Shown: one piece after another, positions 40,984 through 50,209 of the stretch
How the letters are laid out: every line of letters starts with the position of its first letter
Numbering within the stretch: position 1 is the first letter of the stretch
Source of the DNA: [Empedobacter] haloabium
GTDB lineage: Bacteria; Pseudomonadota; Gammaproteobacteria; Burkholderiales; Burkholderiaceae_D
Assembly (NCBI GenBank): GCA_008011715.2
Contig: CP136508.1
Location: 5,642,001-5,706,000, forward strand
Reading direction: 5' to 3'
Length of the DNA stretch: 64,000 nucleotides
Notes under the pieces: model-generated
The model's input: the letters and a program-made list of their open reading frames with translations, nothing else
What the model was told of the DNA's origin: nothing
Database searches by the model: none
Translations under genes and position numbers: made by a program

Positions 40984-43746
40984 ATGCAGCGTACGCTTGC
41001 ACTGCTCCTCTCCCTCGGCCTCGGCGCAACCGTTCCGCTGACCAGCGCGGCACCGGCCAAGACACCCGCCGTGTCGCAGCCGGCTGTGTCCTTCGACCGC
41101 AAGGCATATTCGATCCCGCATCAAAAATTCGTGCTGCAAAATGGACTGACCCTGATCGTGCATGAGGACCACAGCGTGCCGTTGGTGGGCGTCAATATCT
41201 GGTATCACGTGGGATCGCGTAACGAAAAGCGTGGAAAGACCGGGTTCGCGCATTTGTTCGAGCATTTTTTCTTCAACGGCTCGGAAAACCATCCGCATGG
41301 TTTCCGCGAGGCGATGGACGACTTGGGCGCCAATAACCGCAATGGCACCACCAATACCGACCGTACCAATTTCTATGAGGACGTGCCGACATCGGCGCTG
41401 GAGCGCACGCTGTACCTGGAAGCGGACCGCATGGGGTTCCTGGGCAATTATATTTCCAAGGAGATGCTGGAACGGGAGCGGGGCGTGGTGCAGAACGAAA
41501 AGCGCCAAGGCGAAAACCAGCCTTATGGCCGCGTGCACCTGGAAAAGTCGGCCAAGATGTATCCGTATTCCCATCCCTATTCCTGGCCGGTGATCGGCAG
41601 CATGGACGACCTGAACGCGGCTTCGCTGGACGATATCCGCGAGTGGTACCGCAGCTATTACGGCCCGAATAACGCGGTGATTTCGCTGGCCGGCGACATT
41701 ACGCCGGAACAGGCACTGGCGCTCGTGAAGAAATACTTCGAGCCGATCCCGCCCGGGCCGCCGCTGCCGCGCATGGCCAGCTGGATTCCGCAACTGGACC
41801 GCAACCTGCGCGACGAGATGGAAGACCAGGTGCCGCAGGTGCGCATCTACCGCAGCTATCACCTGCCCGGCTGGCGCGATGCGGACATGACGCGCCTGGG
41901 CCTGCTGTCCGACGTGCTGGCCAACTCGAAAAGCGCGCGCCTGAACCGGCGCCTGATCGACGACAAACGCCTGGCCACCGCCGTGGCAGCAGGCGTGGAT
42001 GCCAGCGAACTGTCCAGCACGTTCGACATCGTTGTCACCGTGCGCCCCGGTGTCGATCCGGCCGAGGCCGAACGGGAACTCGACGCCGTGCTCGATCAAT
42101 TGCTCGACCAGGGGCCGACCGCGGCCGAGGTGGCGCGGGTACGCACGATGACGCTGGCCAATTTTGCCCGCGGCATCGAGCGCCTGGGCAGCCGCGCCGA
42201 CGTGCTGGCCGAAAGCATGACCTATGGCGGCAGCCCGGATGCCTACCTGCGGCAGCTGGACATCGTCGGCAGCGCCAAGCCGGCCGAGCTGAAGGCCGCC
42301 GGCACGAAATGGCTGCGCGCACATCATTACACAATGACGGTCAAGCCATTTGCCAAGCTGGCCGCGGCCAGCAGCACGCTCGACCGCAAGGTGCTGCCGG
42401 CGCTGGGCGAGGCGCCCGACGTCAAGTTCCCGGCCATGCAGCACGCCACCCTGGCCAATGGCCTGAAAGTCATTCTGCTGGAGCGGCATGGTGCACCGAT
42501 CGTCAACGTGGCGCTGGCCGTGGATGCCGGCGCGGCGGCCGATACGCCGGCACAGGCCGGGCTGGCCTCGCTGACCCTGGAGCTGCTGGACAAGGGCACC
42601 AGCAAGCGCGACGCCTACCAGATGTCGGACGCGCTGGAAGCGCAGGGCGCGCGGCTGAGCACCGGCACGAGTGCCGACCTGTCGCTGGTGAAGCTGCAGG
42701 CCACGTCCGCCAACCTGGCACCGTCGCTGGCGCTGCTGGCCGAAGCGGCGCTGCGCCCGGCCTTCCCGCAGGATCAGTTCGCGCTGTCCCAGCAACGCCG
42801 CCTGGCCCAGATCGCGCAGGAAAAGGCGCAGCCAAGCGCGCTCGCGCAGCGCGTGCTGCCGGGCCTGCTGTACGGCCCCGCCAACGGCTACGGCCGGCCA
42901 TCGTCCGGTTATGAGGACGCGGTGCGCCAGCTGACCCGCGCCGACCTCGTCAAGTGGCACGGCGACTGGTTCAAGCCGGGCAGCAGCACCGTCATCGTCA
43001 CTGGCGACACGACGATGGAAAAAGTGAAACCGATGCTGGAAGCGGCATTCGGCAACTGGCAGGCCGGCCGCGCGCCCGCCAAGGCGACGGCAGCCGCCAC
43101 GCCGGCGCCGCGCAGGATCTACCTGCTCGACAAGCCGGACGCGCCGCAGTCGACGATCGTCGCCGCCCACCTGGCACTGCCGCAAGGCCAGCCGGAAGAC
43201 CTGGCGATGGAACCGGTGATGCAGAACTTCGGCGGCATGGCCACGTCGCGCCTGAACCGCAACCTGCGCCTGGACAAGCACTGGAGCTACGGTACCAGTG
43301 GCCGCCTCACCAACGTGCGCGGCCAGCGCAGCTTTGTCGTGCTGGCGCCCGTCCAGACGGACAAGACCACGGAAGCGATGGCGGAAGTGCAAAAGGAAAT
43401 CCGCGCCATCGCCGGCGCACGGCCGATCCAGGGCGGGGAATTCACGAGCATCATGCGCAACATGACGTCGCGCCTGGCCGGCCGTTTCGAGTCGATCAAC
43501 GCACTGGAAGCGGCCGCGCTGGAGACCGTCAACCTGGGCCTGCCGGACGATTATTGGACCCGCTACGCCAGCAACGTGCGCGCGCTGACGCCACCGCAAC
43601 TGGCCGCCGCAGCCGGCAAGTTCATCCGGCCCGACGACCTGGTCTGGGTCGTCATCGGCGACCTGCGCAAGATCGAGCCGCGCATCCGCGCGCTGGGCTG
43701 GGGCGACGTGACGGTGCTGGACAGCGACGGCCAGCCGGTGCGCTGA
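40984..43746 (+). CDS. M16 family zinc metallopeptidase (pitrilysin/processing peptidase type)
   Basis: A 920-residue secreted peptidase made of two M16 halves. Residues 1-22 or so are a signal peptide (LALLLSLGLGATVPL). The first half carries the inverted zinc motif HLFEH (H90, E93, H94) in GFAHLFEHFFFNGSENH, with the downstream glutamate in LEADRMGFL or ERGVVQNEKR. The second half (from about residue 480, NGLKVILLERHGAPIV) lacks HxxEH, as usual for the partner domain. Such enzymes cleave short peptides in the periplasm. It is followed 2 bases later by a GFA gene, so the two should be co-transcribed. Confidence 0.92.
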   Translation: MQRTLALLLSLGLGATVPLTSAAPAKTPAVSQPAVSFDRKAYSIPHQKFVLQNGLTLIVHEDHSVPLVGVNIWYHVGSRNEKRGKTGFAHLFEHFFFNGSENHPHGFREAMDDLGANNRNGTTNTDRTNFYEDVPTSALERTLYLEADRMGFLGNYISKEMLERERGVVQNEKRQGENQPYGRVHLEKSAKMYPYSHPYSWPVIGSMDDLNAASLDDIREWYRSYYGPNNAVISLAGDITPEQALALVKKYFEPIPPGPPLPRMASWIPQLDRNLRDEMEDQVPQVRIYRSYHLPGWRDADMTRLGLLSDVLANSKSARLNRRLIDDKRLATAVAAGVDASELSSTFDIVVTVRPGVDPAEAERELDAVLDQLLDQGPTAAEVARVRTMTLANFARGIERLGSRADVLAESMTYGGSPDAYLRQLDIVGSAKPAELKAAGTKWLRAHHYTMTVKPFAKLAAASSTLDRKVLPALGEAPDVKFPAMQHATLANGLKVILLERHGAPIVNVALAVDAGAAADTPAQAGLASLTLELLDKGTSKRDAYQMSDALEAQGARLSTGTSADLSLVKLQATSANLAPSLALLAEAALRPAFPQDQFALSQQRRLAQIAQEKAQPSALAQRVLPGLLYGPANGYGRPSSGYEDAVRQLTRADLVKWHGDWFKPGSSTVIVTGDTTMEKVKPMLEAAFGNWQAGRAPAKATAAATPAPRRIYLLDKPDAPQSTIVAAHLALPQGQPEDLAMEPVMQNFGGMATSRLNRNLRLDKHWSYGTSGRLTNVRGQRSFVVLAPVQTDKTTEAMAEVQKEIRAIAGARPIQGGEFTSIMRNMTSRLAGRFESINALEAAALETVNLGLPDDYWTRYASNVRALTPPQLAAAAGKFIRPDDLVWVVIGDLRKIEPRIRALGWGDVTVLDSDGQPVR

Positions 43747-43748
43747 CG

Positions 43749-44147
43749 ATGACGACCTATCACGGCAGTTGTCACTGCGGCGCCGTCCGCTTCGAGGCCG
43801 ACTTCGAGCTGGCCGACGGCACTGTGCGGTGCAACTGTTCCATCTGCAGCAAATCGCGCTGGTGGGGCGCAATGATCCCGCCGTCGCAGTTTCGCTTGCT
43901 GGCAGGTGAAGGCGCGCTGACGCAGTACACGTTCGGCGCGCATCTGCAGCGGCACCAGTTCTGCCGACATTGCGGCGTGCGGATGTGCGAGTTCGGCACG
44001 TCGCCGCTGCGGGGCGAGTTCGTCGCGCTCAACGTCATGACGCTCGACGGCGTGCCGGACGAGGTATTGGCGGCAGTGCCGATCCGGTATCTCGATGGGC
44101 GGGATGAGCGGTGGCTGGAGTCGCCGGCGGTCACTGCGCACCTGTAG
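43749..44147 (+). CDS. GFA family protein
   Basis: A 132-residue zinc-binding protein of the GFA fold. The cysteine clusters are SCHCGAVRFEAD near residue 7, RCNCSICSKSRWWG near residue 28, and FCRHCGVRMCEFG near residue 73. The ATG at 43749 lies just behind the stop of the M16 peptidase gene, so translation is likely coupled. It differs clearly from the GFA protein at 31151-31528. A hairpin of the palindromic family followed by a T-rich stretch comes 13 bases after its stop. The substrate is not known. Confidence 0.88.
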   Translation: MTTYHGSCHCGAVRFEADFELADGTVRCNCSICSKSRWWGAMIPPSQFRLLAGEGALTQYTFGAHLQRHQFCRHCGVRMCEFGTSPLRGEFVALNVMTLDGVPDEVLAAVPIRYLDGRDERWLESPAVTAHL

Positions 44148-44159
44148 CGTGTCAGGCTT

Positions 44160-44186
44160 GGGGTCTGTCCCTTCGGGACTGACCCC
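44160..44186. repeat. Single palindromic repeat, copy D (likely terminator)
   Basis: Arms GGGGTCTGTCCC and GGGACTGACCCC with a TTC loop. It is followed on the plus strand by GGTTTTTAT, so it can end the M16-GFA transcript. It forms the left border of the radical SAM cassette, with copy E as the right border. Confidence 0.88.
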
Positions 44187-44302: not shown

Positions 44303-44316
44303 TTGAGAAAAATCAA
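44303..44316. promoter_or_regulatory. FNR/Anr-type binding site upstream of the radical SAM cassette
   Basis: TTGAG-AAAA-ATCAA matches the FNR consensus TTGAT-N4-ATCAA in nine of ten fixed positions. It lies 83 bases before the ATG at 44393 in an AT-richer stretch. A class II FNR promoter would place its -10 box at about 44338-44343, where TAGCCT (three of six consensus bases) stands, and the start of transcription near 44351. This predicts expression under low oxygen, suitable for an oxygen-sensitive radical SAM enzyme. Confidence 0.5.
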
Positions 44317-44392
44317 AGGTGCGCCAAAAACCCAGCCTAGCCTGAAAGAGCGAGCTGCGCATCCGCGCGGCCGCGTACCTACTGGGGGACAT

Positions 44393-44782
44393 ATGGAAGA
44401 GACCAAAAACCGCGGGTCGGAGAAATTACTGGCGGCCTGGAAGGGGCGCGCACTGACCGACGAGTCAGTGCGCGAAATAGCCGATGCGCTGGCGCAGTCG
44501 GCCGGCACGGTGGAGCGCGCCGCCATCGTCGGCGGCGCCGATGGCAACGGCGCACGCGTCAGCCTCAGCTACAGCGGGGACGACACGCCCATCTGCGGCA
44601 ACGACATCGCGTTCTGGGTGAAGTGGCACCTGCGCCATGGCGGCACGCCACGGCCGCCCCGCATCATCATCGACGGGATTCCCTTCCCGGACATCATCCG
44701 GATGGAGCTGGACTTCGGCAACGTCCAGCCGATCGAAGGCCCGCGCGAGCTGCCCGTCGCCGGGCTGAACATCGGTGTTTAA
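44393..44782 (+). CDS. Unrecognised 129-residue protein paired with a radical SAM enzyme
   Basis: I do not recognise a family. The ATG at 44393 is preceded by GGGGGAC. The protein has a helical, charged N-terminal third (SEKLLAAWKGRALTDESVRE then IADALAQSAG), a beta-rich middle (VSLSYSGDD), a single cysteine C68, an aromatic stretch FWVKWHL and a strand-rich end (IIIDGIPFPDIIRMELDFGN), closing with RELPVAGLNIGV. No signal peptide or membrane helix is seen. Its stop codon overlaps the start of the radical SAM gene by 8 bases, so both are made together. It could be the substrate of the enzyme, as in radical SAM peptide maturation, or an accessory subunit; its length and lack of a Cys-rich or repetitive core argue for caution about the precursor idea. 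Confidence 0.7.
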   Translation: MEETKNRGSEKLLAAWKGRALTDESVREIADALAQSAGTVERAAIVGGADGNGARVSLSYSGDDTPICGNDIAFWVKWHLRHGGTPRPPRIIIDGIPFPDIIRMELDFGNVQPIEGPRELPVAGLNIGV

Positions 44783-45818
44783 CGACAATCCCACCGGCGG
44801 CATGCCGGTGTTGCAGCTCCACCCTTCACGGCGCTGCAACCTTGCATGCCGGCATTGCTACTCGTCGTCGGGGCCGGATATCCGGCAGGAACTGCCGATC
44901 GCCATGCTGGCGGCCTGCCTCGACGACGCGTACGCAGCGGGCTACCGTCAGCTCGCCGTATCCGGCGGCGAGCCGCTCATGTATGGCGAGCTCCACGCGC
45001 TGCTGTCGCATGCGCGCGAACTCGGCATGACCACCACGATGACGACGAACGGCATGCTGGCGACCGCCCGCCGCTGGTCGCCGCTCGCGCCGCTGGTCGA
45101 TTTCCTGGCCGTCTCCATCGACGGCCTGCCGGCGGAGCACGACGCGATCCGCGGCCAGGCCGGGGCATTCGACAAAACGGTGCGGCATCTCGACGTGATC
45201 CGCGCATCGGGCACGGCGTTCGGCTTCATCTTCACCCTGACGCAGCACAACGTCGACAGTCTGGAGTTCGTCGTCCGCCTCGCCGCGCAGACAGGCGCCC
45301 GCGCCGTCCAGGTACATCCGCTGACGATGGATGGCCGTGCTACCGCCATGTTGCCACAGGCTCGTCCAGATGGATTGGAACTCATCGTCGCGCTGGTCGA
45401 GGCCGCGCGGCTGGGCGCTGCGCTTGGTGTTGCGGTGCACGTCGATGCGGTCACTGTGGAGCAGTTGATGCGGTACAGGTCGAGGTTCGTGCCGGCCCTG
45501 CCGGTAACTTCGCTTACACAGATAGCGCCGATCCTGGTGGTTCAGGCGGACGGCATGGTCGTGCCGCTGACGCATGGCATCGCTGGGCGTTTTATGCTGG
45601 GTTCGCTCGGTACCGCGCGGCTGGCGTTGCTGGCTGAGCGTTGGTTGGAGAGCCAGCGGCCCGACGAGCTGGCGCAGCTGTGCCGTCGGACGTGGGAAGA
45701 TCTGACGGCATGCGAGACGGCGCCTGCTGCGCTCTATTGGTATGAGGAAGTGGCCGTGGCCAGCCGGGCGTTGATTGCCGAGCTGCCGCGCTGGACGCTG
45801 GGGTCTGTCCCTGCATAG
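44775..45818 (+). CDS. Radical SAM protein with degenerate SPASM-like C-terminus
   Basis: A 347-residue radical SAM enzyme. The iron-sulfur motif CxxxCxxC is C21, C25, C28 in RRCNLACRHCYSSS, and the SAM-binding motif SGGEP is at residues 63-67. The barrel runs to about residue 225. After it, VQADGMVVPLTHGIAGR then FMLGSL (residues 257-278) follows the SPASM pattern, but the cysteine normally after Pro is Leu265; only C303 and C313 remain, so a full auxiliary cluster is unlikely. The start is GTG at 44775, overlapping the upstream gene by 8 bases. The last residues LGSVPA and the stop TAG come from palindromic repeat copy E. Maturases of this kind modify peptides; the partner protein is the natural candidate. 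Confidence 0.88.
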   Translation: MFNDNPTGGMPVLQLHPSRRCNLACRHCYSSSGPDIRQELPIAMLAACLDDAYAAGYRQLAVSGGEPLMYGELHALLSHARELGMTTTMTTNGMLATARRWSPLAPLVDFLAVSIDGLPAEHDAIRGQAGAFDKTVRHLDVIRASGTAFGFIFTLTQHNVDSLEFVVRLAAQTGARAVQVHPLTMDGRATAMLPQARPDGLELIVALVEAARLGAALGVAVHVDAVTVEQLMRYRSRFVPALPVTSLTQIAPILVVQADGMVVPLTHGIAGRFMLGSLGTARLALLAERWLESQRPDELAQLCRRTWEDLTACETAPAALYWYEEVAVASRALIAELPRWTLGSVPA

Positions 45819-45892
45819 GGACTGACCCCGAATCTTGGTCGAGCCGTCGCCTGCCGATTAACTTCGGGGTCAGTCCCGCAGGGACAGACCCC
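45800..45892. repeat. Paired palindromic repeat, copy E, overlapping the radical SAM gene end
   Basis: First hairpin GGGGTCTGTCCC / GGGACTGACCCC (45800-45829) holds the stop codon TAG (45816-45818) of the radical SAM gene in its loop. Second hairpin GGGGTCAGTCCC / GGGACAGACCCC is at 45866-45892. The spacer starts CGAATCTT and ends AACTTCG. It separates the radical SAM gene from the convergent rpoC. Confidence 0.92.

Positions 45893-45967: not shown

Positions 45968-50209
<4,242 letters not shown>

Follow-up and report, generated by a model that had tools for sequence, protein, structure and literature searches.

The window analysed here, a stretch of 64,000 nucleotides of the [Empedobacter] haloabium chromosome (contig CP136508.1, positions 5,642,001 to 5,706,000), contains a pair of overlapping forward-strand genes that encode a small protein and, directly behind it, a radical S-adenosylmethionine (SAM) enzyme. 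The small partner gene (44393..44782) starts with ATG and encodes 129 amino acids, comprising a body (residues 1-109) and a variable tail (residues 110-129), while the enzyme gene (44775..45818) starts with GTG and encodes 347 amino acids with a CxxxCxxC motif at positions 21, 25 and 28. As the original prediction had it, the GTG start lies inside the end of the 129-residue gene, with 8 bases shared between the two (44775..44782, + strand, GTGTTTAA). The open reading frame (ORF) listed from 44303 makes use of an upstream TTG start; the conserved small gene begins at the ATG of 44393, preceded by GGGGGACAT, and its relatives align from this ATG or within a few residues of it. Across 11 loci with this kind of pair (hereafter type 1; a further locus, L030, was left out of all 11-locus counts because its pair is identical to that of L029), a GTG is found at the 8-base-overlap offset in 7. 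The offset is identical in genomes G028 and G744 of the same genus, and a candidate GTG start with the same offset is present at three Roseateles-group loci and one Undibacterium locus. At the remaining 4 loci, the nearest candidate enzyme starts are located 1 to 5 bases past the stop of the small gene.

The two genes of the type-1 pair stand side by side in 12 of 12 distinct loci, invariably with the small gene first and the enzyme adjacent to it or overlapping. Searching from the small protein, we find the enzyme directly downstream in all 7 loci of the GTDB contig collection, which come from Roseateles, Mitsuaria and Pelomonas, from three records of Undibacterium and from a short contig belonging to a metagenome-assembled genome (MAG) labelled as Chlorobiaceae. 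Among 392 genomes of the family, a search from the enzyme yields 8 type-1 orthologues (E < 1e-170), all 8 with the small gene directly upstream; three of them we take to be identical with the Undibacterium records of the GTDB collection, and the distinct loci therefore number 12. The profile search of the family was confined to the top 5 candidates of each genome at E ≤ 1e-40, and weaker types of the enzyme could escape it. Neither a type-1 enzyme without the small gene nor a small gene without the enzyme was detected in the collections searched, and neither of the outcomes named as refuting the original prediction, a small protein that turns up widely without the enzyme or a lack of co-occurrence, was seen. 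This pairing is not chance. The small protein was found in 2 of 100 relatives (its own genome and G028), in 2 of 399 genomes of the order (its own and G386) and in 1 of 369 genomes of the class (its own), with one copy of the gene in each of the three genomes matched, and it has no relative in plasmid, phage or viral-contig records. The pair on the Chlorobiaceae-labelled contig (L012) is 52-57% identical to that of the window and is placed with Undibacterium rows in the tree (80/96); it is either a case of transfer or a misbinned contig.

The assignment of the larger protein to the radical SAM superfamily is secure, with a PF04055 (Radical_SAM) score of 67.4 bits at a gathering cut-off of 29.5. 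The residues C21, C25 and C28 as well as S63-G64-G65-E66-P67, the SGGEP motif picked out originally, are invariant in two enzyme alignments of 9 (9/9) and 15 rows (15/15), and these three are also the only conserved cysteines in either of them. The enzyme does not appear to be a SPASM/twitch protein, with no conserved C-terminal cysteines and no SPASM match in Pfam at E ≤ 1. Of the NCBIfam collection, 77 models match the enzyme and none among the 25 best reaches its cut-off, and calling it a maturase, as had been done at first, is therefore an assumption that is not supported. The best models include NirJ, NirJ1/2 and AhbC/D, and candidates tried and rejected were NirJ itself (TIGR04051; 112.6 vs. 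515.45 bits required), the splicease PlpX (TIGR04103, which we take to be linked to IPR026482; 58.3 vs. 725 bits) and prokaryotic viperin (NF038283; 66.8 vs. 180 bits). A PADLOC match to pVip scores 76 bits and is confined to residues 13-140. In a tree of the enzymes, which has long branches and three groups, type 2 (a second group described below) and NirJ-like proteins each fall on one side of a branch, and type 1 does not appear as a clade. The 10 NirJ-like rows, which carry 8-11 cysteines and a SPASM-type tail, lie on the opposite side of a branch with 100/100 support; upstream of them, a frame is readable in 8 of 10 cases and looks Lrp- or decarboxylase-like by eye. A phylum sample at E ≤ 1e-40 returned 11 of 249 genomes, i.e., the own genome and 10 NirJ-looking proteins that match only at about residues 7-206. 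Plasmids gave 29 records with partial matches of less than 60% identity, and the annotated ones among the 20 records listed are TIGR04347 or NirJ proteins that cover about half of the query. Viral contigs gave 28 radical SAM matches at 23-35% identity.

The small partner does remain unrecognised, since none of Pfam, NCBIfam, PHROG and PADLOC has a family that it matches at cut-off or at E ≤ 0.04, and its sequence has no match of note among PDB entries. Over the 11 loci, its invariant residues are concentrated in two blocks (14 of 23 positions in 7-29 and 27 of 50 in 60-109), with 3 of 30 positions invariant between these blocks and 0 of 20 in the tail. The density is high within residues 60-84 (15 of 25 positions, including one cysteine, two tryptophans and two histidines), where G62, D63, D64, P66, C68, G69, N70, D71, W75, W78, H79, H82, G83 and G84 are invariant. 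A structure model with a mean predicted local distance difference test (pLDDT) score of 68 shows the element order HHEEHEE (H, helix; E, strand), with predicted helices at 8-16, 23-34 and 62-82 and strands at 39-46, 53-61, 90-94 and 101-109. The tail changes faster than the body, as seen between the window and G028, where 6 of the 20 residues of the tail differ and 2 of the 109 of the body. The anticipated pattern of a constant N-terminus and a variable C-terminus is hence present, yet cysteine and tyrosine occur in none of the 11 tails, tryptophan occurs in one and only leucine and glutamine occur in all, and the tail would therefore make a poor core peptide. No target motif stands out among the 11 tails, several of which end in GG. 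Of 12 pairwise comparisons of nonsynonymous and synonymous substitution rates (dN/dS), 10 gave a usable ratio (L029-L030 are identical and dS is saturated for window-L012), and dN/dS of the small gene is below that of the enzyme in 8 and above it in 2 (L009-L011 and window-L006), with the reservation that dS is high in the more distant comparisons. In the five closest ones (among the window, G028 and G744; L006/L007; L006/L008), the small gene has values of 0.07-0.12 and the enzyme of 0.15-0.25; the alignment rows used for the enzyme of L006-L008, L010 and L011 start at arbitrary in-frame points, and those for the small gene of L029 and L030 include two extra codons. Both genes are real, and purifying selection is evident.

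A second group of enzymes, type 2, is 33-38% identical to type 1 (BLAST; E 1e-53 to 1e-62) and occurs in 7 of the 392 family genomes, with G028 carrying both a type-1 and a type-2 pair. All 7 have a gene for 103-105 amino acids directly upstream, overlapping the enzyme gene in 6, and of 373 genomes, a search with this small protein alone picks out exactly these 7. Neither the type-2 small protein nor its enzyme has a match among plasmids. As in type 1, the small protein is modelled as HHEEHEE (mean pLDDT 80), with predicted helices at 4-15, 21-36 and 63-74 and strands at 41-47, 54-62, 79-85 and 94-102, so that two separate predictions agree in the order of elements and nearly in their positions. 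At the sequence level, the two small families have little in common, hhalign giving E 0.0015 and a probability of 17% over 23 columns at the last hairpin ("G-I-P-x-x-D-x-x-R"). Several best structural neighbours are shared by the two models (5hl8, 2rjz, 5n7l, 6ghu and 6mrs), and PulL-type, XcpY and PilO proteins figure in this overlap, which may reflect only a common arrangement. The only cysteines common to the enzymes of both types are the three of the cluster. At the type-2 locus of G028 (L045:3417-8662), a ferritin-like gene (PF12902), a LodA quinoprotein gene (PF17990, 152 bits; PF18417, 69 bits) and a flavin adenine dinucleotide (FAD) oxidoreductase gene that may be LodB-like come after the pair, in this order and on its strand. 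This downstream group was not seen in G548 (L046), and the two loci have in common an upstream gene for an exported-looking protein of about 430 amino acids.

The type-1 pair of the window lies between genes that, from their sequence, we take to encode an M16-like peptidase (40984..43746, +; the part compared is 94% identical to its counterpart in G744 and 90% to that in G028) and a GFA-like protein (43749..44147, +) on one side and rpoC (45968..50209, -) on the other. That the pair was inserted at this place, as originally proposed, is supported by G046, where the GFA gene adjoins rpoC at less than 200 bases with no pair between them, and by G787 (peptidase and GFA) and G548 (GFA only), where a gap of about 1 kb from GFA to rpoC contains no match to the pair. 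In G787, the 3' end of rpoC is matched a second time, in part, within this gap (L053:2536-2807). The pair directly follows peptidase and GFA in G000 and G744 and lies beyond the peptidase/GFA unit in all three genomes of the window's genus that carry it; two transposase-like frames separate GFA and the pair in G028, and the gene after the pair in G744 is not rpoC. Of 30 loci fetched, 10 were examined for this comparison, and G038 (peptidase and GFA, with neither the pair nor rpoC inside about 1.5 kb) and three more distant GFA copies (L057-L059, with no match to peptidase, pair or rpoC) are neutral on insertion. Palindromes built from GGGGTCTGTCCC do flank the pair, with copies at 44160..44186 upstream, at 45800..45829, which contains the last five codons (GSVPA) and the stop of the enzyme gene (45800-45818), and at 45866..45892 between the enzyme gene and rpoC. 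The same GSVPA end is present in G028, and the enzyme of G744 ends differently. The window holds 20 half-sites with at most one mismatch (0.33 expected), and the repeat GGGGTCTGTCCC-n-GGGACTGACCCC has 72 + 87 = 159 exact copies in the 6.48-Mb chromosome (control pattern, 0 + 0), several of them paired in opposite orientation about 30-110 bases apart. Being a genome-wide repeat, these palindromes are no marker of this cassette and not its borders, contrary to how they had been described.

The pair is patchily distributed, moves horizontally and seems to have been transferred recently. Two genomes of genus g47, G743 and G719 (the genus also of G386, an Undibacterium record), share a segment of 2608 bases with the pair at 100% identity. 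Its flanks are out of register, and elsewhere in the 12-kb stretches two other, longer segments show 77% and 84% likeness. The complete identity points to a recent horizontal transfer unless it stems from an assembly artefact. Besides the pair, the segment (L029:5638-8245, and in L030) holds an ORF of 98 amino acids and part of what is presumably an AhpD-like gene. No third gene was found to be conserved around the pair across host groups (ORFs of at least 25 amino acids at E ≤ 1e-4, up to 6 kb on each side and less where the locus is shorter, a comparison that could miss very short, diverged ORFs), and the exception consists of 3 matches in 1373 ORFs, all to one regulator-like ORF at a single locus. 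One Undibacterium MAG has, upstream of its pair (L011:2027-2521), a gene for a protein with a Cys/Ser/Gly-rich C-terminus that was not noticed at the other loci viewed.

We tentatively favour the view that the pair forms a self-contained two-subunit radical SAM system in which the small protein serves the enzyme as its dedicated accessory subunit. This small protein, with an N-terminal helix and then a predicted helix-strand-strand-helix-strand-strand domain, would be made first, and the gene overlap would couple its translation to that of the enzyme, which seems to retain no cysteines other than those of the SAM-binding 4Fe-4S cluster. By binding the enzyme, the small protein could then present the substrate or complete the active site, much as PlpY assists PlpX. 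Occurrence of the pairing in two enzyme groups, together with the overlap and a shared predicted fold at diverged sequence, suggests a subunit that touches its own enzyme. The substrate itself would not be encoded nearby; since the pair moves without other conserved genes, it is probably something supplied by every host such as a metabolite, a nucleotide or a conserved protein. The original prediction had left open whether the small protein is the substrate or a binding subunit, and while the dedicated companionship that it implied is borne out, the role of a binding subunit seems to fit better.

A folded protein substrate is nonetheless a serious rival, though on balance rather unlikely: a residue in the folded, invariant segment of the small protein would be modified, and the product would be a tiny enzyme or the carrier of a protein-derived cofactor. 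In its favour are the two-gene module with no other conserved gene found nearby, the many invariant positions in residues 60-84, among them one cysteine, two tryptophans and two histidines, and the lower dN/dS of the small gene in 8 of 10 usable comparisons. However, the type-2 partners keep the predicted fold and, judged by eye, not the residues that are invariant at 60-84 in type 1, for which a binding fold common to both is a better account than a single modification site. Auxiliary clusters are often retained by radical SAM enzymes that modify proteins, and no auxiliary cysteines are conserved here. QhpD and QhpC are likewise a radical SAM enzyme with a small protein; there, QhpC is a small subunit and the substrate of QhpD, rich in thioether-forming cysteines, and QhpD has SPASM clusters, whereas the present small protein has a single invariant cysteine.

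The fast-changing tail without invariant positions and its GG ends in several loci could also point to the precursor of a ribosomally synthesized and post-translationally modified peptide (RiPP), with residues 1-109 as the leader and the C-terminal 20-27 residues modified and released as the core. We consider this improbable given the composition of the tails, the fact that no peptidase, transporter or other RiPP gene was seen to be conserved within up to 6 kb of the pair and the presence of just one small-gene copy in each of the three genomes matched. About as improbable is that no complex is formed at all, be it that the two proteins have independent but coupled functions or that a helix-turn-helix-like regulator accompanies a metabolic radical SAM enzyme related to NirJ/AhbD. 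The appearance of NirJ, NirJ1/2 and AhbC/D among the best models of the enzyme is in line with this idea, as are weak helix-turn-helix matches of the N-terminal helices of the small protein (best E 0.047-0.092), but the latter stay far below the gathering threshold (13.1 vs. 27.4 bits), and if the proteins made no contact, it would be hard to see why two enzyme groups with diverged partners both show the pairing. Likeness to NirJ, the heme d1 enzyme, and to AhbC/AhbD extends over residues 12-190 of the enzyme, which differs from the NirJ-like rows in its cysteines and tail and falls far short of the NirJ cut-off.

Among systems already described, PlpX and PlpY are the closest working analogue of the proposed two-subunit arrangement. 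According to passages of PMC10533398 and PMC11002830, PlpXY comprises a radical SAM enzyme and a small companion from the same cluster that act as a complex, and the latter source places PlpX in IPR026482. What sets PlpX apart is that it belongs to a SPASM-containing subclass, acts on precursors with an XYG motif and shares its cluster with other genes; the present pair has no conserved auxiliary cysteines, no precursor found nearby and a TIGR04103 score far below the cut-off. The literature differs on PlpY, which PMC11002830 calls a truncated RiPP recognition element (RRE) and which PMC12710340 considers too small to be counted among RREs. Though an RRE likewise is a small protein that can stand beside a radical SAM enzyme in a plausible substrate-presenting role, its order of elements is βββ-ααα according to PMC12710340, and the small proteins studied here are both predicted as ααββαββ (mean pLDDT 68 and 80), without the winged-helix order of RRE or PqqD-like proteins. 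As stated in the original prediction, we found no description of this pair in the literature or of a system with it, among the matches listed.

It is possible, if somewhat doubtful, that the two groups represent a new class of radical SAM systems in which a catalytic subunit with a single cluster always comes with a small ααββαββ subunit, diverged in sequence between groups, and which spread as a bare two-gene module owing to a substrate that all host cells contain. New chemistry has come before from radical SAM enzymes that work with small companions, for example the excision of tyramine by PlpXY, and the pair described here is minimal, conserved and mobile. The type-2 group with a partner of its own is the natural comparison for the type-1 pair, and its member beside a LodA-type quinoprotein gene offers a lead to function.
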